Below are positions 1 through 61,500 of a stretch of 64,000 bases of DNA, one piece after another. Each line of letters opens with the position of its first letter. Within the stretch, counting starts at the first letter, position 1. Both the position numbers and the translations under genes were made by a program. The stretch is from assembly GCA_028583405.1 (NCBI GenBank), contig CM053261.1, positions 16,670,783 to 16,734,782 on the forward strand, written 5' to 3'. The stretch is from Pogonophryne albipinna. Its lineage: Eukaryota; Chordata; Actinopteri; Perciformes; Artedidraconidae. The notes beneath the pieces are model-generated. The model was not told the DNA's origin. It saw only the letters and a program-made list of their open reading frames with translations, and ran no database searches.

Positions 1-412
1 GTTTCCTTGGTCATTGTCTGCTTGTCACCTGGATTGTTGTTATTGTACGTGGGCTTTTATTCATTTTACACAATTTGTCAGGTTTTATTTTCTCACCTGC
101 TCACATCTTCAGCTTTCATCTCTAGTTCCTATTTTTGTTCTTCTTAAATATCTTCTCAACGTAATATCACACTTTAACATTTTAACCTCTAGCTTATAAG
201 AATGTATAGTCATATCTTTGATTTAGAGGTAGCCTGACTCCAGACCATCCGCTCTGTGGGGATAGCCAGGAAATGTGTAGGCTTTGTTTCTAAATGTAAT
301 CCTTTAACAATTGTTGCGAGAACCTGCAGGAAATAACATGAACTATGTCCTATGCCTGCTGGTGATATTTAGTGTGCAAACAAGTCTGTCTTGCTTGTAA
401 AAATTCTCTTGA

Positions 413-415
<3 letters not shown>
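1..415. other. Non-coding sequence, nothing recognised
   Basis: AT-rich sequence with no credible exon. The T-rich first 190 bases resemble the decayed tail of a retroelement, but I cannot name a family. The short open frame over bases 14-199 has no domain signal and is treated as chance. Confidence 0.4.
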
Positions 416-498
<83 letters not shown>

Positions 499-557
499 TT
501 CTTGCTCTGCGACCCCTCCTTCCTCTCCTTTAGACAACACACTGCTATGCACACGCA

Positions 558-603
<46 letters not shown>

Positions 604-662
604 TTCTTGCTCTGCGACCCCTCCTTCCTCTCCTTTAGACAACACACTGCTATGCACACGCA

Positions 663-751
<89 letters not shown>
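416..751. repeat. Compound (CA)n microsatellite with a duplicated 105-bp unit
   Basis: Three (CA)n arrays, at about 416-494, 570-600 and 674-751, are separated by two nearly identical spacers. The spacer begins CTATTCTTGCTCTGCG at 496 and again at 601, a period of 105 bp, and ends in a short (CT)n run that differs by one repeat between the copies. The structure is a tandem duplication of unique sequence plus CA array. Open frames across it are repeat translations, not genes. Confidence 0.95.
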
Positions 752-753
<2 letters not shown>

Positions 754-754
754 G

Positions 755-1938
755 TACTGAAGAGGTGTGAAAAGGCAGTTTCTCTCTGCTGCTGTTTAGA
801 GTTTCAGCAACATTGCATTCTGCAAAAATATTTGATTGATTTTAAACACAGTAATTCACACCTTCTATAATTATAGTATTAAAGAGATGGGGTTTTGTGT
901 TGAGGATGTCCCTGAACATGACTTCATTTTCATTAGATCACAAAACATCAGGAAACATTTATGTAAATGACATCAAAGTCAACCTTATGTTTCAGAGGGA
1001 GACACTGGGTGCTTCACTGCAGTGAGAGTTGCCAAATACATTTCGACAATAATATATATTTTATTCTATTCACCTCAAATATAAAGTTATGGGTGGCAAA
1101 AAGTCAGTATCTTCATATTATATTCGAATATAGGAATTACAAGTATTCTATTTTGTGGCTTTTTATTTATAAAGCCAAAGATTTATGCTATTCATTTTCA
1201 CAGAAGACAACAACATTCCTCTTTGCTAACTTGTGACTTTCTAATTCAATTTTACTTTATTTAAATTCAGTAAAATTACCCTTTTCAGCATGATATGACA
1301 GAGAAGTACAAACACTCTGTATCTGCTCTTTCTCTCAACCTCTTTGTCCATAATGATGAAAATATCCAAATTCTATGTTTTTCTTTTTAGCTGTTTGGCC
1401 ATTACATCAAGCAGAGGTATGCAAGTTACTATTTCTAATTATTGTTTCTAATATATCGTCCAAAACTCAATATGCAAATTCTAATTAATATCTGCACTTT
1501 GGTTGTCTTGGGAAACTAGAAGTGAAAATACAGTTGAACTAAGTATAGCTATGCATTTTAAGTTTACAAGAGGACATTTCTGTATTAAGAGGTAACAACA
1601 AAACTATTATTAAGTGACATCAGTGTGTTAAATCACACTCATTCACACTGTTGATACATTTGCACTACCTTTTCTACTGCGAGCAGGCCGTGATCGGGCC
1701 TGAGATTTCAATGTTATTATAGGATATCATTTAATGGAGGAATACATTTATTTTTTTCCAGTTTCATTCATAATTTTCTTTTCTTATATAAGCCAGGCGT
1801 TACGTTTTTCAAAAGGCTATTTCAAGTCTATGAGAGATTTTTATATCTGATAGCCAACCATTTTTTTAAAAACATTTCTTTCTGCCCTTTTAATTGTTTT
1901 TTCCAAGAAAAATAACAATGAGCAATCGAAAACTTCAT
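755..1938. other. Non-coding AT-rich spacer
   Basis: No exon, miRNA-like hairpin or transposon ends recognised. The only local structure noticed is a small inverted repeat, CAGGCC with GGCCTG, at about 1684-1702. Confidence 0.4.
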
Positions 1939-1954
1939 TTTATTCATCTTTATT
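1939..1954 (-). terminator. Paired AATAAA poly(A) signals, candidate end of the miRNA host transcript
   Basis: On the minus strand AATAAA occurs at 1949-1954 and again at 1939-1944, followed by T-rich sequence as expected downstream of a cleavage site. It lies about 1.6 kb downstream of the miR-301c hairpin in the direction of transcription. Single AATAAA motifs are common in AT-rich DNA, so this is only a candidate. Confidence 0.3.
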
Positions 1955-3557
1955 CAACAAAGAAAAATAACAGACATTTCTTACATCAGATAAATCTGTT
2001 AGAAAACCACAAGTATTAAAAACATATAACTTTATTTTTTATTAGCTACACAATTTTGATCAGTTTATTACTTTCCAACACATTTTCTAAAGGTAATTTC
2101 ATATATGCTAAACAACAAGCTTTATTAGCTACAGTGAAATGAATCCACACCCACTTGTGAACCGCAGGCCTGACACATTTTGAAGGAAAAGACACACAAA
2201 CATTTGTTTCATGCGTAGCAGTCGGAGCATGTTGTGTTTTATGGACCTAATGAAATGCAGATGTCACTATCTCATAAGCTTTTATTCTATGTCGTTTTGT
2301 CTGCACATGAAAAGGCTGCCTAAAAAAATCTCCCCTGACATGTTGGGTTTCACTGCAGGATACTTGCTGCTCCATGCAGTCAGATAACTGCAGAAGCACC
2401 ACCGTCCCCCATTCCACACATTCCAGGATTTCCCAGCAAGCATTGCAAGCAAGCCTAAACAAGTCACGTTCTTTACTCAGGGAGAATTTCACAGAGTCAA
2501 GTGACTGAGGTCTCTTTTTGACTTCCCTTCAGTGTGCAATCACATAAATGCATGTCTTATAAAATGTAAAGTAGGCCTACTTTTAAAAAGCCACACGATA
2601 ACACCACAATCTGTCCTTCACTTGAAATGTTTATCTGCATTAGTGCAGAATAGACGTTTTATTTTTCTGTTTTTTCGAATTACTCGTCGTGTCCTTCTGC
2701 TGAACAGCTAACTGGACTGGTTGAACATTTCCACCCGGAGGTCTGCTGACAGTCATCAAAACAAACAAACAAACAAACCTGTTTACTCTCTTACTCTGTG
2801 GTTCAAACACGAGGCACACACAGGAGCAGTGACACCTAATCTCAACACGGAGAGAAAGAAAGACAGAGAAGAGAAGGCCAAACGCGAAGGGGAAGAGAAG
2901 GCCTTGCTCCCTACATTCCTCCCAAACCTCCCCTCCCCCCATCGACCTGCTACCACCAAAGATGCTCAAAAACACACATCAACCTCTCCCGCCCACTGTT
3001 TTTTCTCCCCCATCTGCTTATTTTACCATTAGCAAACAGATACTCAGTGTTTGGTGTGATGACAAAACAATACACAGGTAAAGAAACTCCCCCCTCCCCT
3101 CCAAAAAACTATGGATTTAATTTACCATTTAAACCGTTCAATTCAGATACCATCAAAGTTGTAGGTGTTAAAATGAATTAGAAATATGTTTTATTACATT
3201 TTCTGGTTTCATTTAAATGTCCCCTCACCTATTGATTCTGAAATTCACTTTAAATAATTAGCTACATTTTTCATGAGCTGCTGTGCAAATTAAAAAGGGT
3301 GCTTTACTTTAATCAATACACCATCAAACAAGATGGACTGAATCAATATTATAATTTAGGTAAACTCATTTGATCTTGTCCTTTTCAAATGCACAATTAG
3401 AGGTCTAGTGTTAGCCTACTAGAAGTAAACTCTTCTGTAAATACTGAGGTGTGTAAACAGTTTAGGAGGCTCGCTGTGCACCACCTGCTCTCAGTCACCA
3501 GCTCCACTTCTACACAAACTCGTTTGAAATGAGCCTTTTAGCACCAGTTTAGTGTGA

Positions 3558-3644
3558 GCTGAGGCCAAATGCTATGACAATACTATTGCACTGCTAGAAT
3601 GGATGGTACAGTAGTGCAACATTGTCAAAGCAGCTGACCTCAGC
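3558..3644 (-). ncRNA. mir301c: miR-301c precursor hairpin
   Basis: On the minus strand two complementary arms fold into a classical pre-miRNA. The 3p arm at 3593-3572 carries the miR-130/301 family seed AGTGCAAT followed by AGTATTGTCATAG, which matches zebrafish miR-301c as I remember it. miR-301a differs near the 3' end (TCAAAGC). The 5p arm at 3631-3610 begins GCTTTGACAATG and ends TTGCACTACT, typical of miR-301-5p. The loop between the arms is about 16 nt, and pairing extends outward to GCTGAGG (558-564 of the third kilobase block) with CCTCAGC. The family silences targets with the seed match TTGCACT. It shares strand with the miR-130c hairpin 470 bp upstream. Confidence 0.92.
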
Positions 3645-4023
3645 ATGTGTCAGCACGTGGACAGCCATTCTTCACTGCCAAACTCCAATTACATTTACAT
3701 ATGAAACAATGCCCGGATTTATGTTACATAAAGAGATACAAAAAGGCAAGAGAGACTTGCTTGAAATTCCAATTAAGCTTATTTATTTAGTCTTTAGGTA
3801 AAAATGGCTGTTGAGTGTGGGCTTGAAGGGAAATATATGACAAAAAATGACATGTATTATCTTTATTCCTACAGAATAAAGCACACAGAGGTTTGTTTTT
3901 TTAACCTTATGAAGGTAGTTAGAAGTTGCTCAAACACACACCCAAATGTACATTTAAGGACGTCCTCATAGCCCCATGTGCAGGTAAGAGCAGTAGAGGA
4001 AGGTGTGTGTCTCTGTTTCATCA

Positions 4024-4091
4024 GCCAATGCCCTTTTAATATTGCACTGCTCACCTCAATGTCCAGTAGTGCAACAGAAAAAGGGCAGTGG
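4024..4091 (-). ncRNA. mir130c: miR-130c precursor hairpin
   Basis: On the minus strand the 3p arm at 4049-4028 reads CAGTGCAATATTAAAAGGG followed by CAT, matching zebrafish miR-130c as I remember it; other miR-130 members differ in the middle bases. The 5p arm at 4086-4065 begins GCCCTTTTTCTG and ends TTGCACTACT, the usual miR-130-5p form. The arms are separated by a 15-nt loop, and the stem continues to CCAATGCCC pairing with GGGCAGTGG. It shares the seed AGTGCAAT with the downstream miR-301c, so the two should repress overlapping target sets. It is the 5' member of the pair in transcription order. In the human 22q11.2 cluster miR-301b comes first, from memory. Confidence 0.92.
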
Positions 4092-5771
4092 ACAACAACA
4101 TGGACACCATCAGACTCCACTGCACACACTGACTCTACTATCCGCCCTGTTCTACTAAAAATAATCATGAGGTCACTAACTATAAACGTGTACTTTTATT
4201 TTTGAAAGAATCTATTCGAAAATAGTTAAATCACAGACATACAAATATCATGGACTAATTCAAACTGGATGTTTAAGTTTGCAAACGTTTGTTATTTTAC
4301 TGCAAACAAATCAGCAAATAAAGGTGAAATTATGGAAGTATTAATTCGTGTGAGACAGATCGGATTTAAGAGTCTAACAATGTAACTTTACAGAGGTGGA
4401 GTCGAACTTCCTAAATTAAGCAGCATTGGTTACTCTCTCACTGGGAGAATGGGTATTTCCCAGCATGTGGGCCCATACTATTCTCTCCAGTGAATGACAT
4501 GCATCCTAATTTTGGGGGAGAAATGGGAGGTTGGAGACAAGGAGGGGGGACGACACACTCCCAAAGCTTCAAAAACTACCCGCTGCCACCGTAAATACCT
4601 AAACTATAAAATACATTTTCATCATTTCAGTATTATTTCTTCTAAATGATTTCTAAAACTAAAAAACACAAGAAGGCTGCGACGAATCAAAGTAATTTCT
4701 TCAAAAATAGATACAAATAACTTTGTAAAAGTTGCATTTGTCTTCGGGGTGAAATAACGTAACAATTAACTGAAACAACGTCGAAAATAAAAGCAGTAGG
4801 TCCTACAAGTTTGCACAATCACCGCGTTGTTACACAACATACAGAATATATACCATGAAAGGAAAAAGACGCTGGAAATCTCGAGACCACCATGCAGCTT
4901 ACTCGTCTTTGGTCCATCTGCTTATTCCTGTAAAACACATCAATGTGCTGTTTTTTTATATTACCTGTTCTGGAAATCTTTACGTTTTGGCCGCCATACA
5001 TCTGTGAGCGGCCTATACGCCTCCTTCACGTTGGAGATCTGCTCTGCCAGCTCACAGCCCGCGGCACATTACTGGCTACTTGTTAGATTGCACAACCGCC
5101 TATAGGCTGCACACACACGCAGCACCGTGGAAATGTCCCCCTTAGAGACCCATTACACTACGATAACAGCCCAATAAGGCGCAGGACGCGTCTATCTGTC
5201 CACAAGGCGTTTAAATCGTGTCTTGGTCAAGTTTTGGAGCGAGCTTTCCAGATGCGCAGCGCGGGATTGACTCTTAACTCCTGCCGCTGTTTCCCCCTCC
5301 CTTAAATCGCATGAATAAACACCCAATCTTCAAATCTCGACCTTTGCAACTTCCAAGTTTGCACTGAGCTTCTGAGCATTTACGTAAAAATCGCCTACAA
5401 CTCACAGTGGACACCCTCCCCCCTCCTCCCCCTCCCATCCTCTCTTTGCACAACCACCTCCTCCTCTGAAATCATGAATAGTATCTAGCCAAGGGAGGGA
5501 CAATCCGTTATAGGGAGTAAAAGTTGTCCATAAAACAAAGAAAAGCAACCCTCTCCACAAACCACTCTTCTCGGTCTTCTGCTTTGCGGATTCACGCCGT
5601 CGTCCCCACGCGGCTGCGGGCGAGGTGGAGATCGAATGTGCGGAGCTGGAAGAGTGAGAAAAAATCTCTTCCATGCACAAGCACACGGCCTCGCAGATCC
5701 GGACTCCATCTTTGACTACTTGACATTCAGAGCCTGCTGGAGCAAATTCCTCGTTTGCATGCCTCCCACTG

Positions 5772-5861
5772 ATTGGCCTCTTCTTGCGCTAGTCTTTGCT
5801 ATAAGATGTGCCATTGGTTTGCTTTCGGCGTGTTCAACATTTCCAGCTCGCACGTGATTGG
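5772..5861 (-). promoter_or_regulatory. CCAAT-rich promoter block, candidate miR-130c/301c promoter
   Basis: Three CCAAT boxes, all in minus orientation, lie at 5857-5861, 5813-5817 and 5772-5776. The spacing of 44 and 41 bp is typical of NF-Y promoters. A CACGTG E-box at 5851-5856 touches the upstream CCAAT. The surrounding 5.2-5.9 kb is richer in G+C and CpG than its neighbours. Orientation points transcription toward the two miRNA hairpins. The start site itself cannot be read; somewhere around 5.6-5.75 kb is likely. Confidence 0.55.
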
Positions 5862-6289
5862 CTGCGCGTCGGGGAAGCGTCACACCGTACAACGAATACC
5901 TGATTAACTGTGTCCCATTCACAAATTTCTCATCGTTGCTCCCACCCACCAAACTGTATCTGGATCACTAATTATTTTATTTACTTTTTGGCGCATAACG
6001 CTTTTGTGCGGGTACAAAGGGGATTATTATTAGCCTTTAATTGGCCTCCGGAGGGAGAGTAATGCTGTTCATTAGTTCAAATATGGACTAAACCCGGCTT
6101 ATCTGCTCACATAGGCAGCGAGGATCAGGCCTGAGATATTGATCCTTTAAATACAATATGAATATAGACATAGAAAGAGATTTGACGCGTAATTCCGTTC
6201 CATATTTCTCTAATTGTGCATTTAAATAAAGATAAATACAAAAACGGAATGGTGGTAAAAGTTGCACAACGAGCACGCAGAAAGAGCAC

Positions 6290-6500
6290 GTATGATGTGG
6301 TTGGTTGGGGGGGGGGGGGGGATCAATGGTCGGATCGGATCACACGGGGCTGGGGGCGGACCCAGTGGGCGCCTTTGATTGACGCACAGAGAGGAGTAGC
6401 GGGCTGTGAAATTTGGCATTCCTGACCAGAGGAGCTGAAATAATGGCATTATCCAGTGGGAGAGGGCCCACTTTTTACTCCCCTCACACCCACCCGACCC
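6290..6500. promoter_or_regulatory. Candidate regulatory block upstream of the miRNA promoter
   Basis: A higher-complexity, GC-richer segment after a poly-G run at 6307-6320. It contains CCTTTGATTGAC (a TCF/LEF-like CTTTGAT) and GGCATTCC (a TEAD-like core). It has no coding signal. Called only because its composition stands out from the AT-rich surroundings; conservation was not tested. Confidence 0.22.
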
Positions 6501-6683
6501 GACCCCAGCCCACTCAGAAGGGATCTGATTGTGCAGCCAGTCGGCAAAAAAATGTTTGATGTAAGGCGGGGCGTGATGGATCCGGTGAGGGTTTGGAGCA
6601 GGGATGCCTCCAACTCGCGTCAGGAGTCAAAGTGTCGCGTCGAAGTGTTAGACACTGAAATCAAGTTTACCCCTGATGTTTAA

Positions 6684-8362
6684 TTGTTCATCCAATTATA
6701 TCCTTTTAAAATATATTTATAGCCCACATAGTTCCTTTGCTAATTCATAAACTAATACAAATAGTAGATCCCTGCGTAAATGTATGGATATACAAGCTGT
6801 TGAATTAATCTGAAATACAGGAACATTTAAAGATTATTATTATTTATCGACAGAGGCAAAGCAGGTTGAGGGGTTCCAACTGTATAAATGACTGAATCCA
6901 CATGATGGAAAAATAAAATGTTGTTGATAATTTGAACGTTATATGAGTAGTAATTCCAAAGCTATAAACAAATCTAAAATTAGGTAAATACATTATTGTT
7001 AAGTATTTGCTTGTAGATTAAAACTCTGCTTCAATAGAACAAACCAATACTCTTCTAGAACATAAATGACAATTTCCTCACAATCCTTTAAATTGTTGAA
7101 GAAGTCATTTAAAGGTGTTTTCTTTTAATTACAGGACTTTTATTACTTCAGTTGATTTTCCCCTTCACCAACACTTGTTTGTTGAAATCATTTCACATTG
7201 CAAGAGGAAACGCAGGACACGCAACTAATGCAAAGATAAATTGATTTGTGTAAATTACAGAATACTACAAATAATATGTGTGTGTCTTAATGCTGAATAA
7301 ACTCTTTAAAGGTTCACATCTTGCCTTTTCTACTCTGCTAAAGTACCATGAAGCTGTTTAGAGGTGTTTTAAGAATTTTAACAAGATTTGTGATTTTTAA
7401 AATGTTGAATGTTGTGTTTAAACTTTTAAATAGAAACGACATTTGATTAGAAGAGATAAAAAGGTCATTAGCTATTTTTCTTTATCTAATTTCCAAATAT
7501 CTTCAAATAATTTGTATCCAGAGGTTTATATCTGTTCAAAGATATGATACAACCTAAATGTTCAACTGTACTTAATTTGTCATTGTTTTTCATGCTTTAA
7601 ATTACGATAATCACAGTGGCGATAAATAACAAGAAATTAGCAAAACATTAAAAACGAAGGAAAGTAATTTTCAATTGTGGTTTAAGTCACAAGAATCTAT
7701 TAAAACAATCTCATATCTTCATTTTAAACACGTTTTTTCCTCATTTAAATGCCATATTTAGCTTATTTTCACGACATTTCCTTAATTAAAAAACAGTAAA
7801 CAACTGTAAGATTAGAAAATCAAACAATTAAATAATAGAGTAATTGCAGTTAATAGGAGAAATTGTGTTTAAAATACCATTTCTAGTGAAAACAGGCCTA
7901 TCTCAGCATTAATAGCTGGAAAATAAAGGCATTTATTAGCATCCTTTATATATTCTTTTAACATAAAGAGTTATCAGTTAATTTCCTTAGATGTGTTTCA
8001 AATAATTGTAACCACATGTGAAGAAATTAAACGGTTATGTTTTATTTTATATTTTGGTGAGAGTTTTCCTGATTCGTTGCCTTTTTATAACGTTTTTAGA
8101 AAGGGATTTCGTATTTACAGAACAAAGGCGCCAGCTGCTCAGACACGTTCAATCAGGGTTTATCTTTACAGGGAAATGTAAAGGGAATTAAAGGGGGAAC
8201 ACTTGGAGTATTTGGCAATGTACCTTGTTGGAAGTAGGCGAGAAACAGAGACAAGAGACAGAAAAATTTCATGTTTGGAGAATGTTTCAGTGAAAATGAG
8301 CCTGAGGGGAAAGAGCCACAAAGCACCACTCCCTGAACTGCCTGACTTTAAACTGCTGCCTG
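6684..8362. other. AT-rich non-coding stretch
   Basis: Long AT-rich sequence with no exon, hairpin or transposon terminus recognised. Open frames are short and without domain signal. Confidence 0.4.
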
Positions 8363-8373
8363 TGTGAGGTGTC

Positions 8374-8391
8374 GGGGGGGGGGGGGGGGGG
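8374..8391. repeat. Poly-G run of 18
   Basis: Uninterrupted G homopolymer. It sits at the start of a 215-codon open frame (8364-9011) whose translation is low-complexity and matches no family I know. Confidence 0.9.
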
Positions 8392-9904
8392 CTCAGAAAA
8401 GCCTTTTAAACATGGGAGTTATTGTTCCCTCTGTTTTTTCCAAACCTCCCATCCTCCAAAAATGTACCTCCTTTCTTCCTCTGCCCTTTAACCTCTCCCA
8501 ACCCCCATCCCTCCATCTCACGTCTCTGTTCACATTTCCCCTCCTTCCTCTCATCGGCCAAAGACCAAACAACCGTGATGGATCGTCATTGATAATTTCC
8601 CACCACGAGAAAAAAAAAAAGCTTAATGGAGAAGTTTTTTTTGGGGGGTGGGAAGTGCTTTTGCTTCATCTTTTTCATGAAGTAGTAGTAGACCCCACCT
8701 CGAGCTCAGAGCCCCTGTGCACCCTGCCTCCTCCAAAGAGTGCCTCCCTCCCCCTCCTCCCCCCCTGCCTCCCTCTTGAAACAGACTCTATGGACTGCAT
8801 GCATGACATTCCAGCTGTGTGGGTGGCACAGCGTTTTTTACATGCGTCTCCAACAGTACACAGGGCTCCTAAAGCACAAGAACCTCCACCCATGATCCAC
8901 CCTCCGTCACTCAGGAGCTCTGTTCTACAGCATCCTTACCTGGGACAGTCCTTGAGAAACATGAATAAGTTGTCATCTAAAGGTAGAGAAGTTCATAGCA
9001 GGATGTGTTAAACAATAAGTCATTAAACACATATCTCTTTCCTTATTTTTCTTAAATCCAGAGACCTGCAGGTCATCTTTAATAGCTCAGAACACATTTG
9101 TAGGATTATCAGCTTGATGCTTCATGACTTTACGATACACATTTTGGGCTGATGATGATTTAGACGTATGGTTAAATAAGCCTGATTACATTTCGTTAGC
9201 TGTGTTGGTGTGATTACTGTAGCACCCCTTAAACATCTCAAATAAGTCTTTTTGGTTTTCTGAAATTGGTGTTTAAATATTTGTTTGTAAAAAGACTAAA
9301 AGTTAAACCTCACTATGTAAGATAACATGCTGCAGATTGTTATGGTCGGTAACTTTTAAATATGTACTGTTCATGCAAAGCTTAAATAACATGTAAAACA
9401 ATTAAAAGGATAACTGTATGTCCATTCATGGGAAGGGTTACCACATCAATGCTTTTGTATTTGGTTTCATAGAGGTTTAAAAGACAAGAAAGAATATTTT
9501 AAGCCAAACGAAAATAGGTTGAATTTACAGTTTTTGTTATTGTTCATGTTCTTACACATTTAAAACAGAAGTGTTGGACTCCAAACACTGAGGAAGTTAA
9601 GCAAATTCCGACAAAACATAATTGATAAAATGTGTTTTATGTTACTGCTTTTAATCTTCTTTATACTTCTCAAATACAAAAAAAAAATGCCACTCTATCC
9701 ATTAGGTGATTATACAATAACTTTAGTAAGTAAGTAAGTCAGTTAATTTCAAATATAAGAGTAGTTTCCGAAAAAGCAACTTGTGTATGTTTCTACAAGA
9801 ACGTTTATCCAGTGGTTAAAAAAGTATTTGTTTAATTTTGACTTTACTAAAAACCAAAGTAAATCTTCTGCACATAGAAACTTCTGTTTTCTTACTTGTT
9901 AATG

Positions 9905-10030: not shown

Positions 10031-10139
10031 ATATGCAACAGTGATAATGTCATTAATATTATAGCCACCATACCCCCCCCAACAGAGTTGTAGGATTAGC
10101 AAACAGACAAACTCCACTTCCTCAAACCCACACACTTCC

Positions 10140-16352: not shown

Positions 16353-16424
16353 TCATACCTCCAGGAAGCGGGAGCTGCTGGTCTTGGTGTGGAAGGGCTC
16401 GGACCACATGCGCCGCAGATCCCC
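16353..16424 (-). CDS. sppl3: sppl3 exon 11 (codons 355-377 and stop)
   Basis: Acceptor CTCCTCAG precedes GGGGATCTGCGG. The exon encodes [20 protein letters not shown] then LEV and TGA, the family's conserved cytosolic C-terminal tail. Codon phase is clean (phase 0) with exon 10. Confidence 0.96.
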
Positions 16425-19400
16425 CTGAGGAGCAGACAGGAGGCACACAATTAATCAAATGTTCGCTGATTCTTATCCACAGGGTCAGCCAAGACAACTG
16501 CTTTAGACTCTTTATTGAGGTAAAGAAAAAACAAGTGTTGTATTTTCTTTTATTCTACAACTTAAACTTAGTTTTTAGCCTTTAAAATTCCCTGAGGTAA
16601 ATCCTCGATGTCTAGTGACTGCCTAATCCAACAAGGAAAAAGGTTGTGAGGAAATTATGAAACGCTTTTTTGTGGAGGCTTTCTGTTAAACTGATCTGTT
16701 GGGTTTTCAATGTAACAGTTTACAATCCATTTCCAATGTTTCACTACATTTCAACAGATTAGAAATTAATCCAATCTGCTACAGCCACATTTTTGGGGTA
16801 TTTGTATATTATATGTGAAAATTACATAATTTCAGTTATAATTCAAATTATATTAAAGTAAAGAAAGAAGAACATTGCTGAATTCTGTGAAACTGCTACA
16901 GCTAAACTAAATCAATTTGATTTATATAGCCCAAATCACACATTTGCCTTGGGGGGCTTTACAATCTGTACAAAATACAGCACACTGTCCTTTTCAACCC
17001 TTGCTCTAGATCAGTGCATCTCAAAGTGTGGTCCGCGGACCACTGATGGTCCGTGAGCGCCCCCTAGTGGTCCGTGAGTATATTGGTACAATTTCACATT
17101 TTAAATAAATTAATAAATTAAAATTTTACGCACTCTCGCGGGAATATCTCTACGCAATGGAGCGAGCTTAAGTTTCACTTTCGATTGTATGTATTTCGAT
17201 TGTACCTTCATCACACATGTTGCCACTTGTTTGTACCATTTTCAGGCGATTTGTATTCTGTTCTAGAAAAACGATGTGATTTTGGATATTTGTGGAGTTA
17301 GGTGGTCCGCGAGTGTTTTTTTATTGGTTAAGTGGTCCTTGGTATGAAAAAGTTTGAGAAACACTGCTCTAGATCAGTGGTTCTCAAATGGGGGTACGCG
17401 GACCCCTAGGGGTACGTTGGAGTACTACAGGGGGTACGTGAGATTTATTTTATGTTAATGAAAAAAAAAAAAAAAAGTTATGCATTTAAGCAAACTACTA
17501 TTAGAAGATTAATTACTTTATTCAAAGGTTTACAGTAATTCTGGATAATAAAATGGGAAAAATAAACGGGGTGCTCTCTTTTGCTCTCCCTCTCCTGACA
17601 GCTCGTCAGTCTCGTGCAGCTCGCTGAACCTGTAATAAGTGACCCGACAGTAAAGAATAAATATATTTATAACTAGTTTAGCTAGTTCCAGAGTAGATAA
17701 ACTAGCCAAGTGTGTTAGGTCTAACTCTTAGTGTATTTAATTTTGCTCCACTCAACGGTCCGTCACAGCGGCGGAGCTGTGATCATGCAGAGCTGCGTGT
17801 TCTCCGTCAGCAGCAGCTCATCTGATCCCTCTCTCGCGTCCAGTTAGACTTCACTCGCGTTTATGTCCAAATCTATCAGATCTAGCTAGTTCCAGTTAAT
17901 TATATGACCGCCTGCTTATCAAAGGACACCTAAACAACAAGCGTTGCTTGGCAACGGCGTGTGGTCGCAAAGTATAGCGCAGCATTATGCATATAGGAGG
18001 GGTCAAAATCCCATGCTCATAAAATGCTCATATATTTTTCTCTTCATTCCCCACACCCCAAAATAAATAAATAAATATACCAATTTTAGGAAAAGTAACG
18101 AAGTTTGAGCAGTGTGGGTTTTATATTAACAGAGTTACACATATTTCAAAACGCGAAGTGTAATAACTGCAGTGGCCTCCCTGTCACCGAGAATGACAAA
18201 GATCCTCAGTGAAGCACAAGCCCATGTTTCTCACTAAGTACAACTTATTAAAAAGATCAGTTCAATGCAACTAATGTCGTCTTAGTGTTATTGCATGATG
18301 TTAAAATTGGTTTGCCATGAATTTAGTGATGGATTGTAAACATTTTAAATGTAGCATTTAAGTGTTTCTCAGTTACAATGTTGTTGTTTTAATAAATCAG
18401 ACACTGATGGTGCAAGGCTGTACTGTACCTCTTTATAGGCATTTTTTCCCCCTAACAAATTGTGTTTGCGCTGATCAGGGGGTACTTGGCTGAATTTTTT
18501 TTCCAAAGGGGGTACATTATTGAAAAAAGTTTGAGAACCACTGCTCTAGATAACACAAAACTCCCAAAACAATGCCCTTTACTGGGGGACAAAAGACGTG
18601 GTGTGTGTTGCTGTCCTGTACCTTCAGGTAGGCCATAGTGAGCAGAGGCAGCAGGGTGAAGGGCACCAGGTAGAGCAGAGCGGGCTGAGCAGCACGGTGG
18701 ATCCTGGAGGCCACTGTGGCCGTCAGCAGACCTGGAGACAGATCATTGTTAATCACATGAGAACTGTACGTGTTCTTTATTTTAAAGTATACTCCAAAAA
18801 CCTGAAGGGAAAAATTGAGATTCGAAGAAAAACACTTTTTGGGAGACACATAACTAATGGGACCCGCTTACAGACAAGCTTCACACTGAAACAATGAGAC
18901 CCTGACCTTTCACATCCATCCTTCCATTGATTGCTTGCTTACCCACAAAGTATCCGACGAGAGTGCAGTGGAAATAGGAGACGCGCTGCATGCGTCCGGA
19001 GATTGGGACTTCCCCATTGGCCTGCTTCTTGTAGTTGTCATAGCGCAGGACGAAGCATAACAGCAGCCCCGGCATCACGATGTCTCCGATTCCCAGCATT
19101 GAGAAGTGACTTCCTGTGGAGCTGCATGGATTGGAACAAACACAGAAATAAGTTGGGAAGATCTAAAAACATGGTCAAGAATAAGAGCCCCAACGAGTCA
19201 TGGAAAATAAATACAAAGTACATATTGGTCCAAACCAGATGTCAAATCTGACTATTGATATGTTAGCCGCCTTGTGGAGCTGTAATGCTGAAATTGCAGC
19301 AGAAAATACAATTTCCATCACTCTTACCTGGGAAAGACCAGTTTTCCAGGTAAGGAGAGGCGGGGGACATCGCGGCCCATCCCAGGTCCCAAGTGGAGCT

Positions 19401-22400
19401 TCCTGGAGAGAACATCTATGGGATTTTCAGCCGGCTGGGTGGCAACTTTCACCATCACATTACTATTGAAGATGTAGGCTGAGAAGAACACCTGGAGGGA
19501 AAAAGCAGAGTTAGGCTGGTAATATTGACATATTCTCATCTCAATTTTAACAATAATTTGGTGACACTTGTGTTAGCATAGTTAGCTGAAGGTGGTCATT
19601 GCTTTTGCGATTTGTGCTCAATGAAGGAGCTGATTCAAAGTAAAGACAAGGCCAGATGTAGCTAATAAATCAAATTTCAATCTATAGGTACCAGGAAATC
19701 TCAGAGGAAATTGAGATGTTCATTTCAATGTTGTCTCAGTGAGACGGATCCTTTTAAATCTTGTTCATTTCTGTTCATTAGTGTTTCACACTGTGAATTT
19801 TGTGTTCAGCTATGATGGTGATTAATGCAGCAATGGTTACTACCCAGTTCCTCCAGAACACACTGCTACTGGAAAATAGGAAATGCATCACTTCCTAAGC
19901 AACACATCATCTGGCTGGCAAGGCGGTATTTGCTTGTGTATGATTAGAATGTAAGGGCGTCCTTAAGCTGTATCATTACTATGTTGTTAGATGTGGGATA
20001 AAGGGATAATTTATGTGGACATTTTGTTTAATGAGTTTGTCCTTGTAAACACGGTCTAGCTGCTGTATATCACAGCAGGGTCTCGTACGTCAGCTGTGAC
20101 GGGGGGCAGTTATGGATGGGAGCATGTCTTACCCAGAACACATCATAAATGAGCAGTCCTGACAGCAGCAGGCAGGAAACCTTCAGACTGGGGAGCCGCA
20201 CGAAGGCTATCATGGCGACACACAAGCCCATCGCTAGAGCTGAGGGGAGGGAAAACACAAGATATTAAAAACAGAGTTCTGCGTTTCAGCAGAAATACGC
20301 TGAAATTAAACATGAGAACTAATTCACGTACATTTATTTAAGAAACATTAATCACTGTGCACACAGCCTAATTAATTAGTCAGACTATTCTGATGAAATG
20401 TTGTGCTAATTCACTTTTGGGTGCACGAGGCAAGACCTGATAAGAAACAAGAGAGTGTTGGGACTGAACATGAGAGCATGATAGGCTTTTAATGCACAGA
20501 TGGTTTGAGTCAATAAAAGCACATGTTTAATATAATGGCTGCATTTCACATAATAAATGTTTGTGTGTATACTCGCCATTATCTCTAAAACAACCAGCAC
20601 TTAGGCCCTAAGCACAATACCTAACTGCTGCTAATGCAATACTTGTCAATGTTAAACTCATGTATGGTATTTCATTTTTTATAGATTTCCTTTTAAAATA
20701 TCATTAAGTATGCCGTTAAGTGGATTGTGAAAAACAAAAAAGGAAATTAGATTTCATTAGACCGGCTCAGAATAAATGCCAGAGGGGGACAACAGTATTT
20801 AACTTGTTCTCATGAAAGGGAGACACACAGTATGTCCAGCTTGTGTCGAGGTCCTCTAAGATTGTGCATATTTTATGAGTAATTTCCAATTCAAATGTTT
20901 CATATTGTGTATGTTTCTTTTGATTATGCGGCTTTTTATGAGGGCCGCATTGTTCACATTTCTGAAGAAGTGATGTAATGTTTGAAATGACGTCAACACG
21001 GTCAAATAATACAAGTGCACACACCCACGTAATTTCCTCTGCTCAGCACTAAGATTACAACTTTGACCAAGACCAGTTAAATGCCTGTTATATAGCAGCT
21101 GACTAACTTTAGTGTGTTCTTGCTGTATTGGCATGCATCACCCTGAAGAGCCTGAAAATAGTGTTGCTAAGATCTGCATATCGCATGAGTCACAATGTCA
21201 AGCTCCTTCTACCAAAAGAGATGATGGAAATTGATCTTTTGTCTAGAAGATTTAAAAAGGTACATATTTTTTATTCCCAGAATCACAGTTAGCAGCTATG
21301 CTAAGAAAACTCCCCACACAGTTAAATACATCTTCTAATGGGCAATGTTTCACAGAATACAACCTGCTGCAGAGCTATTCTCTGGAAATATGGAAAAGAA
21401 ACGGAATTATTGTGAATGGAAACACTGAGACGACAGTCCTGAGAGGGAGAGACGCACCGTCCATGAGGAGCCAGTGTCCAGTCAGTACCCAGATGAGCAC
21501 CAGGAGAACGGAGAGGGAGAAGGACAGGAGCTCAGCCAGGGTGAAACGCCCACAGCAGCCAAAGGAAATCCTGCAATAAGAAAAATAATTGACACTCTTA
21601 TCTAGATCGCACAGAACTAAGCTTAGTAAACATAAGAGATGTAGGGAGAGACAGAACATCCGTGGGATTTCTCAGCATCAGCAAATGTGAAACATGCTGG
21701 CTAAACAGGCTAATACATTTGAGTGGTATTTCAATACTTGACAAAGAACAAGTAGGACGAGAGAGCATTGACTGGTACGAGTGAGTGTAAACTAATCCAG
21801 TAGTTTATAGATAGTTTTGGCTAGCTAAAACTGGTTACACTGTTATTGTTGAAACATCTGAAGTGTTTTTTGTTGTCTACCTAACAGCTTCAAGTGCATT
21901 GCCACCTCCTTCTGGACTGGAGGGCTGCTGACCTTTATTTGCATATAGCTAGAGAACAAGTCTAAATGAATCCATCTTAAATCTCAACTGGATTTCATCT
22001 CAAAAGCCTGAGACGAATACATGTGCAATATATAGCCTATAGAGGTAGGAGACTGTGAATCTGTAACTAGGAGACGTTCATATTGGTTATCTATAGGTGT
22101 GTTTATTGTTGGTGGTTCCTTGTGCTTAAGATGTCCAGACACCTGAACCTAAAGGCTTTTGAATAGTTTGTTCATAGGGAGATAACATCAATGTTAAAGG
22201 GTGTACTAAGCGAATACAGTACATGAGCTTTTTAAATAGTTTTAAGACATACAAAACAGCATGGAGCAGTTTAAGCGACAACATACATACGGCACCTATA
22301 CACATGTGATTTCCTTACTTGTTCACTGGGGCGCATGGTTTGGTCACATACTGGCACATTGGCAACAAGAGGAATGCAAATGCAATTGTTGCAAGAACTG

Positions 22401-25400
22401 AGGAAGAGAACAAAGCACAGCGGTGAACAACAACAAAAAACCACACTGCTCGTTTTATGTCAGTTTAATGCGGCAGTTAATGTTCTTTACAGTTTTAACA
22501 ATAAACGCAGATAAGAGGCCTGTCTCAGTGTGTAATTACTGAGCCGAAACGTGTAATCCTACCGCTGTGGAGTTTTTGTGTTACGTTGAGGAGCGCTCAC
22601 CTGCAGTGCAGATGGTAAAGACCACCTGTACTGAGTCAAAGAAGAAGAACATGACTAGCAGAGACACTGAGGCTCCTATGGGCAGGAACAGGGCCTGTGT
22701 GGAGTCTATAGTCTGAATACCTGCAAAACAATACACACGAAGAAGTGAGGAGAACTTAAAGATACAACAAATGGTTATACTTTTATTTCCAAATAAATCT
22801 TGCGTAGTTTTTTTTTTTGTCCTTGCCTTGTATGTAACACTCACTGTTTGAGTTGCTGTTATTAAAAGACCCTGGCAAGGGGTTCCCATCTTTATCCTTC
22901 TCCTGGTTTTCACAATCCATGTTTAATGACCTGCAGGGGGAATGGGAGGAAGAGCAGGAGAACGTGTTAGACTCAGTAATCACAATCTCAGAAGCAAAAC
23001 GGTGTATATGAGGCTGTGTAGGAGACTTCTGTTCACTACAACAAAGCGCTAGCTGTTATTTATAGACAGATAATAGCTCTGTCAATGGAAGATGACTCAG
23101 TTGGTCTTTTCATAAGTTTGGGGGAAAAACAGCCTTTCCTTTATGTAGGGAATAACAGAGTGGACGTAGTCGAGAACATTCGTTCTCATTATAATTGACT
23201 TCAATCAGTTACAAATGAATGACGTGTGGTTAAAGTGTTGAAATGATGACTACATTTGGCAGACCTGCAGACACTTAAACCTGAAAAAAGTTCTTCACAT
23301 CGACTAACAAAATATTTTCATTTCCTTGCTGTGGTTCTTTCCTGTTCATCTCAGACAAAAGTGAAATAGTCTTAGAAAAAGTGTATTTTCCTCTTTATTG
23401 CGACATGTTTTTCCTCCCTACAGGTGAAGGCCTTCATCACAAGACAGTTTGACAAACATAGTTGCTTTGTCACATTAGGAAAATGCGAGAAACCTCTCGC
23501 ATTGCACGATAAATCTTTAACCTGTTGCGTTATGTAGCAAACAACAGAATTTCCAGAAAATCTACAAAGGAACCCCAGCTAAGTGTATAATACCTTTTTT
23601 TTTTTTCAATATCTAGCTTTTAAATGGATGGAAACTAAATGACTGTATATGATTTCATCTCCTGACAGCAGCAGCTGCAGACTGTAATGAGCTCAGCTTG
23701 ATCTGATCGGTTCAGCCTGAGGATTTAAGCCTGTCAAGCCATTTACTTGATCATAAGACTTATCTAAAAAATGTGTTTTGTCCTAATGTAACTAAAGCAA
23801 TCCAAAATCCATTAGGTGTTGGTTCTTTCAATGCAGCAAATGCACCAAAATCACATTATGTGTAATGTTCACCGGGTATCTTGCAGCGGGAAAGAGTCAG
23901 ACATGGATGCGACGAGTGGTCTTTTACTCACATTAACCAGAACATGTGCATTTTTACTAGATTGAACCCTCAGGAACTGGTTTATGTTCCAAAATGAGAC
24001 TATACACCATGACACTTAGAAGCAAAAGCTTTTGTAAACAAAAGGCCTTTTGTTGAGAGTGGCAGTCATAGCAAGAAGCCTGTGACTGAGTTTAAAGCAG
24101 GGGTGGGGAACCTCCGGCCCCCGGGCCGTATACGGCACGCGAGACCATTTGGTACGGCCCTCGAGGTAATTTATAAACACCGGAAAAAGGAAAAAAAATT
24201 AAGAAATCGAGACCGCAAACAAATTAAACAAGCGAGTGCCTGTTTTTCCTGGCCAAGGTCAGGGTCCTTGAACACAACACGAGCCTAACGTCTCATCACG
24301 TGGTCTATGTCTCGTCTGACAGTGGTGCAGTTCTGACGGAGAGCACCAGAACGTCACTCCGGCACTTCCAAAAATTGCAGTACCCATAAGTCCGTACACA
24401 TGCCGCAGTTTTTGCGTGTCTGTGTCTTTAGTTGAAAGCCCAGTGGCGATCTGTTCATCTGTCATACTGATCATACAGTCAATAACTTTGTTGTTATTAG
24501 CATCTGGTTAGCTAGCTATGCTAACGAATATAAGAAGCTTTTTCTCCAACCAGTGAGGTAAAGGCACATCTTTATATGATCATTATAGTTATAAAACAAC
24601 AAGAGAATAAAGTAAACAGGTATAAAATACTATATGACAGTAAAAAACAGTTGTTATTAATAAACAAGAATACAGTTTGAAATGAGAGTGATTTGTAAAA
24701 TATCCATAAAGAATACATTACAGTTCTGTTTCATATGGGTGTTGAGAGATGTATCCATAGATCTCCTAGTGTTGCTCTCAAAGTGCACCAGATTGATGCT
24801 TTTAACTTAAACATTTAAAAAACAAATCTTCCCGGGGGAGCATGCCCCCGGACCCCCCTAGAGGAGGTTAGGTCCCCCCCAACTTAAATCATGTTCACAT
24901 GGATAGGAAACTAAATACATGTGCACACATCTTGTGTCCATGTCTTTCTGTTTTGGTGGTCATGCCACACCGTGCACGTGCATGCATGTGAGAGTCATGG
25001 TGAGATATCTGGATTAAGAGGTTGCTTTTTCTTTGCACAGCATGAAAGAAAGGCGAAATGAATGGGCTGTGATTTTAGTTTTTTTAAGCAGAGGTCAATA
25101 ACTTGTACGGCCCTCGGAGGATGTTGACACATTTGAAATGGCCCTTGAGAGGAAAAAGGTTCCCCACCCTTGGTTTAAAGCATCAACTGTTATTTTAGAA
25201 ATCACAATAAACAATTATAAGATGTCTTCAGAGATTGTCATGTTAAATATGTGTCCATTCTGCAGTGATGCGAGAAGAAATTCAGACTTGATCTGACAGT
25301 TTTTTTATCGTATCATGAACTTCTGGAGGTTAGAGGTGTAATAATGCAAACAAGGTGTCTTCTGTAAGTCAGTATTTAGAGACACTCACCTGAAGCTGCC

Positions 25401-28400
25401 ATAAACGATGAGGAGGATGGAGATGAGGAAGGTGGACACCTGGCTGGAGTCAACTAGGGAGTACGCCCTGAAGAGGAGAGAGAGATACAAACAGGAACAT
25501 GAGTACACGCGTATATGTGGTGATACTGCAAATTACCTTTAGTGTAATACCAAACATAAAAGTACACAGTGTTTCTGCGTCTAAACATGGTCAGTTTCCA
25601 TAACAACGGCCGTCAAACTGATATTACATCGATTAACAGTAACAACTTGCATTGTTTACTTTTCTACTAAACACACATTGTCCCTTCCTTAAGTTTCACA
25701 TGAACAAAGTAAATGAGGCATTTTGAAAAGACTCCAAGATTACAAGTAGAGATGTCCCGATCCGATCATGTGATCGGGGATCGGAGCCGATCACGTGATT
25801 TTCGAAAGATCGGGATCGGGAGAGAAAAAATCGGGGATCGGGATTTTTTTTTTTTTTTATAATTTTTTTAAAATTTATTTAATGTTACAAAACTAAAATG
25901 ACCATGTTCATGTCTTAAAGTCATCCCGAGGCCTTAGTTTTGGTTTGAAATGACACAACATCATGTATGTGTTGCTTCTTTTGGGCTTGTTTTCAGACCT
26001 GGTTGCTTATTTCTCTCAAAGCTGGCAACAGAGTGGGCGCGCAGTGTCTAGCAGTAAGCTAACGAGAGGCTACGTTCAGCTGGTGACTCGGGACTCGGGA
26101 CAGAGAAAATGTCAGGAGTTTGGAAGTATTATAAAATTGAAAGCGAAGGCAGTGTAACAGCCAGATGCAATGTTTGCAAGGCGGAGGTTCCGCGTGGTGG
26201 AAAGAACAGAGCTACGTTCAACACGACCAATCTAATACGCCACCTGAGAAACAAACACCAACAACAACAGGACGAGTACACAGCGGCCACTCGGGTAACG
26301 GCACTGAAACAACCCACACTTTCAGAGACGTTTAAAAGGAAAGAGAAACTGCCCCAGAACAGTGAAAAGGCCAAACAAATAACAGCCAAGATAGCTGAAC
26401 TCATCGCGTTGGATGACCAGCCGTTATCTGTTACCTTTTTTTTCTCTTAATGCATTGCATAAAGATCGGATCGGGAAAAATCGGTATCGGCAGATTGTCA
26501 AAATCAAATGATCGGAATCGGATCGGGAGCAAAAAAATGTGATCGGGACATCCCTAATTACAAGCCCTTGTTAATGTGCTTCCTCCTTTTGTTGGTGCTG
26601 CCAGCAGACTGCGATTTGATAATGATGATTATTGTTGTGATTTTTGGAACTTGTCCCCGTTTAGTTTGTGAGCATATTACTGATACAAGCTGAGGTGAGG
26701 GAAAACACATGTGTTGTTGGTCTTCAATGCCCATCTGATGCACTCAGACTTCCTGTCATCCTCCAGATCAATTCAATGTTTCCCAACTTTGTTCTTTAAT
26801 GTTCAATAAGTCACTCTAATTATTTATTATTATTAAAGAGGAAAATCTGTCCCTCTGCCATTTCACCCTGCATGAAGCTTCTCCAAGAGAGAGAGAGAGC
26901 GAGAGAGAGAGAGAGAGTTGGCTAAAGGACACACTTTTGGTTAAATATCACAAAAGACTGTTTCATGAATATCTGGCTATACATCTTTTATTTCAAACAA
27001 TGCACATAAATGTATTCTATATCACACACCACCAAGCAGACTTTGAAATACAAAACAAATATGTCAGGTTATTAGCTGTTGAGGCTAATATCCCAATAGA
27101 GACAGTGAGTCATGAGAATGGATTGGCTGGTTTTTGCCACAACTTAAAGTCATATTATGAGAGAAAACAATAGCATGAACACCTGCGTAATAAGTTCTAG
27201 CCTCGGTTTAACTGTGCAGGTATCCCTTTCTCTTTTCTACCTACTTCATATTCAACTCCAACATACACAATATCAGCTCAAAACCATCGTGTCACAGTTG
27301 CATGCTGTAGAAAATAAGAAAAAAGGAGTTTGCCAACGGTAATTTCAGTCAATCATTTCAGATGCTGCAATTTGACAATCCCACATCGGTCGGGGACATT
27401 TTATCACCACTACTTTGAATCTCTGCAGGCACAGGGGACACATTTCCCCCTCCAGCCAAACATACTCCCACAACCAAAATTGATGTGTGTGGATATAATG
27501 TATACATATAAAAATGGAACTGGACCGACTGTTATCAGTGTAGTCAAATAATAAGACAAGAAGAATTTACAATGCTTTTGCATGAATGCCTCAAATGATA
27601 TCCAATACAATGTGAATCCCCGCACAACACAAATGCTGCTGTTAGGACATACATGTTTTCCCAGAGAACGGTGGGTGCCACAATTACACCAAAACAATTC
27701 AATGATAAAAACTGCAAAAAAACTGTTGAAAAACCAACAGTCATACAGTTAGAGAAGGGGTTTATTATCACAACTGAGGCTGGTCCACACCCAAACATCA
27801 ACACTTCCTGGTTGTTGCTGCACCCCTCTCTAATTTCTATGGATTAAAGAACACAAAGTTCTCCATAGATCTAGCCTCTTAATTTTGATATCAAAGATGT
27901 TTGCCACAGTCAAACAGCTCTAGTCTGGGTTTATTTTATCTGCAGACATTCATTAATTGACTCAGTCAAAATTTAATTCTGCAAACATCTTCAATCCTCT
28001 TGCAATCTGTACATGTTATTGTGTTTTGTGAGACTGACTTGAAATACTGAAGAGGAGCTGACATAAGCATATGCTCAGCTAGGCTTATGTTAAAAAGAGT
28101 ATTAATACACTTTAGATTGAAGATTAGGCATCTTAGTTCGGGTTTGTCAAGACATGTATGATCAGGCTTCTAGTTTGCAGACTGGTGTTGTGTCAACGCA
28201 GCAAATTGTTCCCATATAAATGATCTGGGGGCTTGACGTAGCGTAGACATTCAACCTTATAATGCAGGCCTTTTTCTGCGGCAAAGACAAGGCTGCCATT
28301 GTGAAGGCTGCCTGCAGTTTGGATGTGCAGGTTTGACCCCGACCCTGACCTGTCTGTCTCCGTCTCTGGGTGAGGTATGCATGTTGAAGTTAAAAAACAC

Positions 28401-46636: not shown

Positions 46637-51389
<4,753 letters not shown>

Positions 51390-54425: not shown

Positions 54426-56185
<1,760 letters not shown>

Positions 56186-57873: not shown

Positions 57874-58596
57874 ATGGGATGCCGTCAGAGCTCGGAGGAG
57901 AAGGAAGCGGCGCGGCGCTCCCGGCGAATCGACCGCCACCTGCGCTCAGAGAGTCAGCGGCAGCGGCGTGAGATCAAGCTCCTGTTGCTGGGCACCAGCA
58001 ACTCGGGCAAGAGCACCATTGTCAAGCAGATGAAGATCATCCACAGTGGAGGCTTCAACCTGGATGCCTGCAAGGAGTACAAGCCCCTAATCTTGTACAA
58101 TGCCATCGACTCGCTCACACGCATCATCCGTGCCCTCACTACACTCAAGATCGACTTTAACAATGCTGATCGCGCCTACGACGCCGTGCAGCTCTTCGCC
58201 CTCACAGGACCGGCTGAGAGCAAAGGGGAGATCACTCTAGAGCTGCAGGGGGTCATGAAACGTCTGTGGGGGGACTCAGGGGTACAGGAGTGCTTTCAGC
58301 GATCCAATGAGTACCACTTAGAGGACAACACTGCCTACTACCTGAATGACCTGGACCGCATCTCTGCACTCGAGTTCATCCCAACCGTTGAGGACATCCT
58401 GCGGTCCCGTGACATGACCACCGGCATTGTGGAGAACAAGTTCACCTTCAAGGAGCTTACCTTCAAGATGGTGGATGTGGGTGGGCAACGTTCGGAGAGA
58501 AAGAAGTGGATCCACTGCTTCGAGGGCGTGACTGCAATCATTTTCTGTGTCGAGCTAAGTGGCTATGACCTCAAACTTTACGAGGACAACCAGACG
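57874..58596 (+). CDS. gnaz: Gz alpha subunit, first coding exon (codons 1-241, partial gene)
   Basis: Encodes the N-terminal two thirds of G alpha z, a pertussis-toxin-insensitive Gi-class subunit that inhibits adenylyl cyclase, mainly in neurons. MGC at 1-3 provides the myristoyl (G2) and palmitoyl (C3) sites. S16 and S27, the known PKC/PAK phosphorylation sites, are kept. The P-loop is GTSNSGKS (40-47), the Gz-specific form of the usual GxGESGKS and linked to its slow GTP turnover. Switch I has R179; switch II is DVGGQ with Q205, the same numbering as human. The exon ends DNQT at donor GTAAGA, the boundary I recall from human GNAZ. ATG is in a strong context (ACCATGG); an in-frame GTG 24 bases upstream is not needed. 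The last ~114 residues are not in the window. Confidence 0.97.
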
Positions 58597-61500
58597 GTAA
58601 GAAAAATCTGTTTTACAGGAGCCATATATGCACATGCACACATGTGCACTAAACATCCCTGTTAATATAGCAGTTTGAATAGATCATCCTAATAAGCAAG
58701 GAAGTATTCAATCTCCACTGACTAAGTTTTACTTTGTGAGAAGAGATCCAACCAGTATTTTAATCAGTGGGTTGAGGTCATTTAAGTGACAAGATCAAAT
58801 ATTTTTTAGTCAGAAAAGAAAGTACTTCTGACGCATTGCAATGATCTTAGATACCAATAATCTTGGTATCTATATTCGAAGTCCACGTAATTGCTTCAAA
58901 GCATGAACTGTCTGGTGCACAAATAGGTTAAATATATTCCTTCGCTAATTGTGAACAATCAAAGGCAAAATGTTTGGGGTTGTCAACACCTCCAAATATT
59001 ACATTTTTATATTAAATGTTTTAAATTTGGAAGCAAAGAGATCACAATTGAGTGTGTTATATTGGATGTAATCAAGTACATCAGGTCTGCCTTTTCCATC
59101 TAACACTCCTTGTTTACTTTAATGTAAATAAATGCACAATCATTAGTTCACTGTAAGATTATTAAACCATCAAACCAGTGAACAGCTTATCACTTAAAGC
59201 AGCTACTGTAAACAGACCTGAACAAAGAATGGGAGTTCATTCTAAGTACAACATTAAGTGTACCTTTAGTTCAGGTCTATAGCTAGAGGATACAGCTATG
59301 TAAAAGTTTCATTAAACTAAAGGATCAGAGGTTACATAAATGATATGTTCTGTTGGAGAGGAATTAGGAGATTCACCTCAGAAGCCCAAACAAATGTCTT
59401 ACTCTTTTTGGTACATTTTGATTTACATGGACTGGATTTACTGTATTAAAGTGCTGAAGAGCTTCTCTGTGAAAATGTAACAGGCACTTATCTGCAGAAG
59501 GTTGTTTTCCACTCTTTACCCTTTTCATCTTTTTATTATGCTCTAAATAACATTACCACTGACTGTAATAGCATTCAGTGCATTCAGTTTTGTTTAATAA
59601 ACCATTTGGAAGGCCTTATCCAAATGTTATGGTCCTTTCCAAAGTTATTTGGCTGGAGGCATGAATGGAGAAATAGGTGAAACACATCCCCTTTGCCTTA
59701 TTGTGGTAGTGCAGCTATTTCAAATCTGTCTGAATGAGAATGGCCGGTTGGTTATCTCCCCTTCATGGTTGTGGAATTTGAACGATTTGCCATCCATAGA
59801 ATATCTGCTTTGTTATCTGAGTGTTTTGGAATAGTTAGGTAGTTATTGCTTGTTTAACTGCCTTTTTGATAATGGAAGGTCAACAATAGATACTATTTTA
59901 CTTCTTGAGTCCAGACCAACTATGAGGGGTCAGCTATTTACTATTTCTTCAAAGCCATGATCACATATTGTTTCCTAAAGTGGCTCCAGTTCACTTTTTC
60001 ATACACTCAAAAATAGCTTGAGAGCAAAGTCATTCCTGTTACTGAGCTGGCCTGATAATTCATGGGTTGCCCAGATAAAACAGGGAGTGCACGGAGATGG
60101 GTTGGAACAAGAAATCAATTAGTTTTATAGGTTAAAAATAAAGTCTGAGAAGAAAATGCAGTATGGTGTTAATTGAGTTCACAGAATAAAGTGTGAGGCT
60201 GTACCTGTGAGAATTAACAGATTGTGAAGGCACCGAGTAGCAATGGGAGTTCACAGGTGCTAGAAAAAACAACTTATAATATTCTAAGATAGGAGCGGAA
60301 GAAGATGGCAATAGATCAGATTAACCAGAAAGAAAGACATCCTGAAATTAGAGCAGTCATCCTGCGGCAGATATAAAGACGTTTTCTGCAAATACTGACA
60401 ATTTCATGGTTAGGTTGTAGTTGAATTCATGACTGCTTTTAAAGTTGTATGTGTTTTAACACGTGAAATAAAGTAGCCTTTGAAGAAACCAACAGGGTTT
60501 CTTTTAGTTAAACGAGGGTTAACTAACTTGTGAAAGAAAATACCCATTAATGGTGGCTGTGATTTTCAGGGGCCAAACTGTGACATGTTGCCTTAACTGA
60601 CTCAATGAACCATTTCACAAACAGCTCTTCTTTGTGCGTTAACACAGAGACTCACTACACTACACCTCAGCTAAATAAGTCCATTATATTTAGATGTATT
60701 TTAAGTGTTTAAGAGTTTTACTCAACATGCATCAGCTAACCCTGAACTGAGGTGACACTGAAGAATTCATTGGGTCGCATCGACTAGTTGTACTTGTTAA
60801 CATTAGAGATGAGAACATGAGACTGAAAAAATGGTTTGGCCTTTCCGAAATGGTTTTATTGCATATAATTTTGAAGATGGGTTATATTGCTAAGTAATCA
60901 TGTTTATAATTTGAGGATCTACACAAGAGACAGCACGCATATAGTGGCAAACAGCCAACTCCATTTCCCTGTGCACGTTGCTTAAGGATACTAGTGGCTC
61001 AGTTGCCAAAACGGCACACTAATTATCTATTCCACGGTGAGCAACCAGTCTCTCTCCACTTTAACAGTTTTATTAGCGCAAATCTTTTGGTTTAAAGAAA
61101 TGTGTTTGAATGCCACATTAATGAGTGCAGATTCAATACCATATTGATGGTAAATAAACCAGATTCTAATATAAATGACTTTAACAAACATCTGCTGTAA
61201 AATGATCATCATATCAACCATATAGAACAAATTTACACTAACAAGCAAAAAGCATTTTAAATAGCAGGCTATACCTTATTATATAACTATGCAATTACAT
61301 TACTCATTAGGCGGTTTTATAACAGATGTGACGGTGTCTTAATGCCCCCAAGTATAATTATATTCATTTACAGTATATAATGGATGGGTAGATCATGCAG
61401 AAATGTACAGAAGTAAAGCAGAATGGTAGAACATTTTAAAGCATGACCTACAGAGAGGAGCTACTCGCATATTCATGTTTTAGTCACCAAATCAACTGAA

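Follow-up and report, generated by a model that had tools for sequence, protein, structure and literature searches.

The closest described system is a zebrafish chromosome 10 polycistron, which Table 3 of PMC2427041 gives as 'miR-310c, miR-130c' and whose first name we read as a misprint of miR-301c. Among others, that source lists a further polycistron on chromosome 10, 'miR-130a-1, miR-301a-1, miR-454a-1', as well as 'miR-301b, miR-130c-2' and 'miR-130b, miR-454b-2' on chromosome 5, and groups zebrafish miR-130a/b/c, miR-301a/b/c and miR-454a/b under AGUGCA. In Senegalese sole at hatching, miR-130c was reported as the miRNA with the highest read number, and miR-301c reads were also numerous. 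We analysed a stretch of 64,000 nucleotides from contig CM053261.1 of Pogonophryne albipinna (hereafter the window) and found 130c and 301c hairpins adjacent to each other on the minus strand, as in the fish miR-130c~301c cluster. The locus is almost certainly the canonical miR-130c~miR-301c cluster of ray-finned fish. Its features and those of the neighbouring genes are collected in Table 1.

Table 1. Positions of the miRNA features, the candidate promoter and the neighbouring genes in the window.
Feature	Position	Strand	Basis
pre-miR-301c hairpin	3558..3642	-	Rfam RF02061 mir-301, 86.5 bits; fold MFE
pre-miR-130c hairpin	4019..4097	-	Rfam RF00258 mir-130, 43.5 bits; fold MFE
miR-130c-5p arm, predicted	4065..4086	-	5' end as snakehead miR-130c-5p, 1 mismatch in 22
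miR-130c-3p arm, seed AGTGCAA	4028..4049	-	identical to published fish miR-130c
miR-301c-5p arm, putative	3610..3631	-	placed by analogy with 130c; pairs with 3p arm in fold
miR-301c-3p arm, seed AGTGCAA	3572..3593	-	identical to snakehead miR-301c-3p
candidate promoter of primary miRNA transcript	4751..6000	-	CpG-rich; RRCCAAT at 5861, 5817, 5776
sppl3 coding exons, SQVSTFL exon (25445) to stop	16353..25500, high end approximate	-	motifs, Pfam, homology
gnaz first coding exon	57874..58620, end approximate	+	PDB match, Pfam G-alpha

Rfam cmscan over the whole 64 kb matched the 301c hairpin to mir-301 along the complete model (positions 1-84 of 84, E 4.7e-18) and the 130c hairpin to mir-130, again from end to end (positions 1-83 of 83, E 1.6e-5). 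The gathering cut-offs are 56 bits for RF02061 and 40.6 bits for RF00258; the 301c hairpin lies above the curated cut-off of its family and the 130c hairpin marginally above that of its own. On the mir-301 model the 130c hairpin scored 45.3 bits, which is under the cut-off of 56 bits and slightly more than its mir-130 score. No further gathering-level match was found in the 64 kb. Positions 1-12000 were also scanned at E up to 5, and none of the 13 matches listed there was an extra family member: eight fell on the two loci or on the strand opposite them (mir-301, mir-130 and one mir-19), and the other five were weak matches to mir-2060, mir-337, mir-483, STnc350 and Histone3, all below cut-off. 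Beyond 12000 the scan was at gathering level only. The two hairpins are separated by 376 bp and their 3p starts by 456 bp. The initial annotation had placed minus-strand miR-130c and miR-301c hairpins here, 470 bp apart; both are found at that place and on that strand by Rfam and by folding, and they are neighbours, while the distance holds only as an approximation.

Both loci fold into stable hairpins on the minus strand. When cut tightly they beat all of their 200 shuffles, with an MFE of -43.8 kcal/mol (z -7.0) for 301c (3650-3550) and -34.4 kcal/mol (z -3.5) for 130c (4105-4010). With longer flanks the 301c hairpin was still distinct (3665-3540, z -4.1, none of 200 shuffles as good), whereas 130c was less so (4140-4010, z -2.7, one of 200 shuffles as good), the base of the hairpin having re-paired. 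We rejected hairpin energy as proof of a miRNA, because a scan of the window with 6,390 folds of 101 nt revealed three other places at -43.8 or lower, matching or exceeding the stability of 301c. On the same grid the two miRNA loci reached -39.4 and -36.4, the latter ranking 23rd of the 25 places listed. A coarser scan of 852 folds gave 12 that reached -34.4 and none that reached -43.8.

The 130c 3p sequence is the same as Senegalese sole miR-130c (PMC4097167) and as a sardine sequence in a row naming dre-miR-130c-3p as its homologue (PMC7320087, whose sardine miRNAs are computational according to the abstract). The 301c 3p sequence is the same as snakehead miR-301c-3p, and snakehead miR-130c-5p has the same start as the predicted 130c 5p arm, with one mismatch (PMC4783888). 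The marine medaka sequences differ only at the 3' end, where 130c has one extra base and 301c one base fewer; the medaka table marks the two sequences as common to zebrafish ('dre') (PMC4211694). The match to zebrafish miR-130c and miR-301c, which had been proposed initially, is supported by the sardine row and these medaka marks, and the names themselves are supported by the Rfam matches together with the 3p identities. Names within the miR-130/301 family are loose and not stable across papers; chicken gga-miR-130a carries the 130c 3p sequence (PMC2375912) and trout ssa-miR-301a-3p the 301c 3p sequence (PMC9266697). The 130c sequence is also listed as pig miR-130c, with a count of 1 (PMC2644714). 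A collection of viral sequences gave no exact match to the 20-base 130c core and three to the 18-base 301c core, which we take as chance, and phage records gave no match at 1e-5.

A canonical animal miRNA derives from a stable hairpin with at least 16 bases paired between the arms. In our folds, 19 of 22 bases of the 5p arm and 18 of 22 of the 3p arm are paired in 130c, and 20 of 22 and 17 of 22, respectively, in 301c, all exceeding the 16-pair threshold. Both 3p arms carry AGTGCAA at positions 2-8, which places them in the MIR-130 family. The shared seed originally described is supported, and the two arms pair with each other at each precursor. In the 64-kb window, each mature 3p sequence has a single minus-strand copy and none on the plus strand. 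AGTGCAAT has three minus-strand positions, 4048, 3592 and 43092, and one plus-strand occurrence. The third minus-strand CAGTGCAATA, at 43093, lies upstream of the sppl3 exons at a place with no gathering-level Rfam match. The signs of Drosha and Dicer processing include a UG and a CNNC motif, overhangs and the spacing between the arms. A UG is found at -14 in both hairpins, the arms are 15 and 16 nt apart at the two hairpins, and the CNNC motif is absent at +16 to +18 from both flanks. At the Dicer end, both hairpins show a 2-nt overhang. On the Drosha side the 2-nt overhang is present for 130c, where the first base of the 5p arm pairs so as to leave it on the 3p arm; for 301c, the published 22-nt 3p end and the assumed 5p start leave no such overhang, while the Dicer end fits.

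The tile 5001-6000, which lies 0.9-1.9 kb upstream of the miRNAs, has the highest CpG count (53) among 1-kb tiles taken at steps of 250 across a window with an overall CpG o/e of 0.44. The RRCCAAT boxes in this region run along the miRNA strand and make up the sole 120-bp span with three boxes on one strand; across the whole window there are 22 minus-strand and 14 plus-strand boxes. Judged by composition, the CpG/CCAAT region is somewhat more probably than otherwise the cluster's own promoter. Human MIR130B is listed as located on a CpG-island shore (PMC5294724). A second CpG-rich stretch in the window, 34500-36000 (49 CpG in 35001-36000), may correspond to the promoter or the first exon of sppl3. 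We propose that a non-coding primary transcript probably starts in the CpG/CCAAT region ~1.7 kb upstream and runs along the minus strand. This single transcript would contain both miRNAs and would be expressed in P. albipinna, and Drosha and Dicer would free guide strands from both 3p arms. Because both guides carry AGTGCAA, they would be expected to repress the same set of mRNAs via TTGCACT sites.

Transcription from a promoter of the cluster's own has to be weighed against the possibility that the miRNAs are cut from sppl3 read-through or a very long sppl3 3' UTR. The sppl3 stop precedes the miRNAs by 12.3 kb on their own strand, and the two intervening ORFs scanned (6222-6626 and 8352-9011, among ORFs of at least 90 aa) match no Pfam family, as an untranslated extension would have it. 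However, this strand carries 13 putative AATAAA signals in the stretch that separates the miRNAs from the sppl3 stop, and the window's most CpG-rich kilobase, with its cluster of CCAAT boxes, is directly upstream of them; we regard an origin from sppl3 transcripts as unlikely. Nearly palindromic hairpins might also be transcribed antisense, making the plus strand the functional one. This is scarcely conceivable, given that only the minus strand has the 3p arms that match published fish miRNAs exactly and that the Rfam scores on the plus strand drop from 86.5 to 44.1 bits and from 43.5 to 31.4 bits, below cut-off, even though that strand folds nearly as well (-40.7 and -33.3). The several paralogous clusters listed for zebrafish (PMC2427041) leave room for decayed, non-expressed copies, and it is from the sequence that expression here is deduced, but neither hairpin has lost its mature 3p sequence or the pairing between its arms, and decay is very unlikely.

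The gene upstream of the cluster is sppl3. Pfam gave Peptidase_A22B for each of the four sppl3 pieces examined, with one match falling short of the family cut-off. Among the best 120 of 780 matches to the joined exons, the top score was that of naked mole-rat SPPL3 (83% over 93%), and the named full-coverage SPPL3 proteins with the highest identity among the matches listed were from fishes, Liparis tanakae (90% over 100%) and Merluccius merluccius (89%). Together with the miRNA sequences, these identities point to a ray-finned fish. One sppl3 exon gave no match to PDB by sequence at E 0.01, and the first exon was not located within the span given in Table 1. We rejected feedback of the miRNAs on sppl3, there being no full TTGCACT site on the minus strand from the sppl3 stop to the 130c hairpin. 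Just upstream of the 25.4-kb sppl3 exon, an ORF on the plus strand (26058-26450) encodes a BED zinc finger (Pfam zf-BED, 39.3 bits); such fingers are presumably linked to hAT-type transposons, and the ORF is perhaps a fragment of one. Long (CA/GT)n runs at ~46600-46970, 55860-56200 and 400-760 appear as TH/VC repeats in ORFs.

On the other strand, ~54 kb from the miRNAs, lies the first coding exon of gnaz. Its best PDB match was G(z) alpha at 490.8 bits, compared to 323.7 bits for the best G(i) alpha, and it matched Pfam G-alpha at 285.5 bits. We take human SPPL3 to be on 12q24 and GNAZ on chr22q11, where 130b/301b presumably also lie; as the two human genes would sit on different chromosomes, the sppl3-gnaz linkage may be ancestral or fish-specific. 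A single GNAZ copy is reported to have remained after the teleost duplication, and in vertebrates the gene is reported to sit within an RSPH14 intron (PMC5896119). Among the top-ranked open-licence records of a literature search, none treated sppl3, mir-301 and mir-130 together, and passages of PMC3497579, PMC4159003 and PMC4236176 contain nothing on the order or neighbours of the miR-130c/301c cluster.

The gene order had been called opposite to that of the human cluster, which we take to be 301b then 130b. That 130c comes first here stands. The comparison itself may join non-orthologous '130' genes, because human 130a and 130b bear different paralogue numbers. Under MirGeneDB names, human 130a is quoted as Mir-130-P1c and 130b as P4a (PMC10142546), and 301a as P2a (PMC8759566). 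The P numbers presumably mark tandem paralogues. With regard to orthology with human 301b/130b, the order is opposite if our reading of the human cluster is right, and of the neighbours here, sppl3 and gnaz, presumably only GNAZ is on chr22q11. A tentative idea is that an ancestral tandem 130/301/454-like array was reduced to different pairs in fish and in mammals, and that the order reflects reciprocal paralogue loss and not inversion. The 130-P1 and 301-P2 genes would have survived beside sppl3 and gnaz, with the fish pair having its own CpG/CCAAT promoter, while human chromosome 22 would have kept 301 and 130-P4. With 130c-301c as P1-P2 and human 301b-130b as P2-P4, the opposite order would be explained without an inversion, which is conceivable but not needed, and the 'reversed order' would be a record of reciprocal loss. 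Zebrafish 130a-1, 301a-1 and 454a-1 being listed together and the P1c and P4a names of 130a and 130b are consistent with this idea. The 130c precursor is also slightly closer to human 130a (53/79) than to human 130b (49/77), for the human precursor sequences as we assume them. In contrast, both zebrafish pairs with a 130c are tabulated with the 301 first (PMC2427041), which would be the reverse of the order here if the table follows the direction of transcription, and for this reason we regard differential paralogue retention as rather unlikely.

These results locate a known developmental miRNA pair on a contig where a protein-only annotation would miss both genes, and add the cluster's neighbours, sppl3 and gnaz, and a candidate promoter. 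They also warn that like-named miRNAs such as 130b and 130c should not be taken as orthologues when gene orders are compared. The cluster is already known as a zebrafish pair; the annotation is correct but ordinary, and the interest first attached to it was set too high for a pair that an earlier table gives as one polycistron in that species. Compared to known systems, human miR-301b/miR-130b on chromosome 22 likewise brings one 301 and one 130 together, in what we take to be the reverse order. The 130c 3p sequence here is one base from miR-130a, as given for snakehead (PMC4783888), and three bases from 130b as we assume its sequence. The zebrafish miR-130a-1/301a-1/454a-1 polycistron also joins a 130 and a 301, with the 130 listed first, but has miR-454 as a third member, and the scan of 1-12000 at E up to 5 listed no mir-454 match; the part of the window downstream of the 301c hairpin measures 3,557 bases. 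The zebrafish miR-301c/miR-130c polycistron has the same two members as the cluster described here; its table, which is silent on transcription order, puts 301 first, whereas 130c comes first in P. albipinna.
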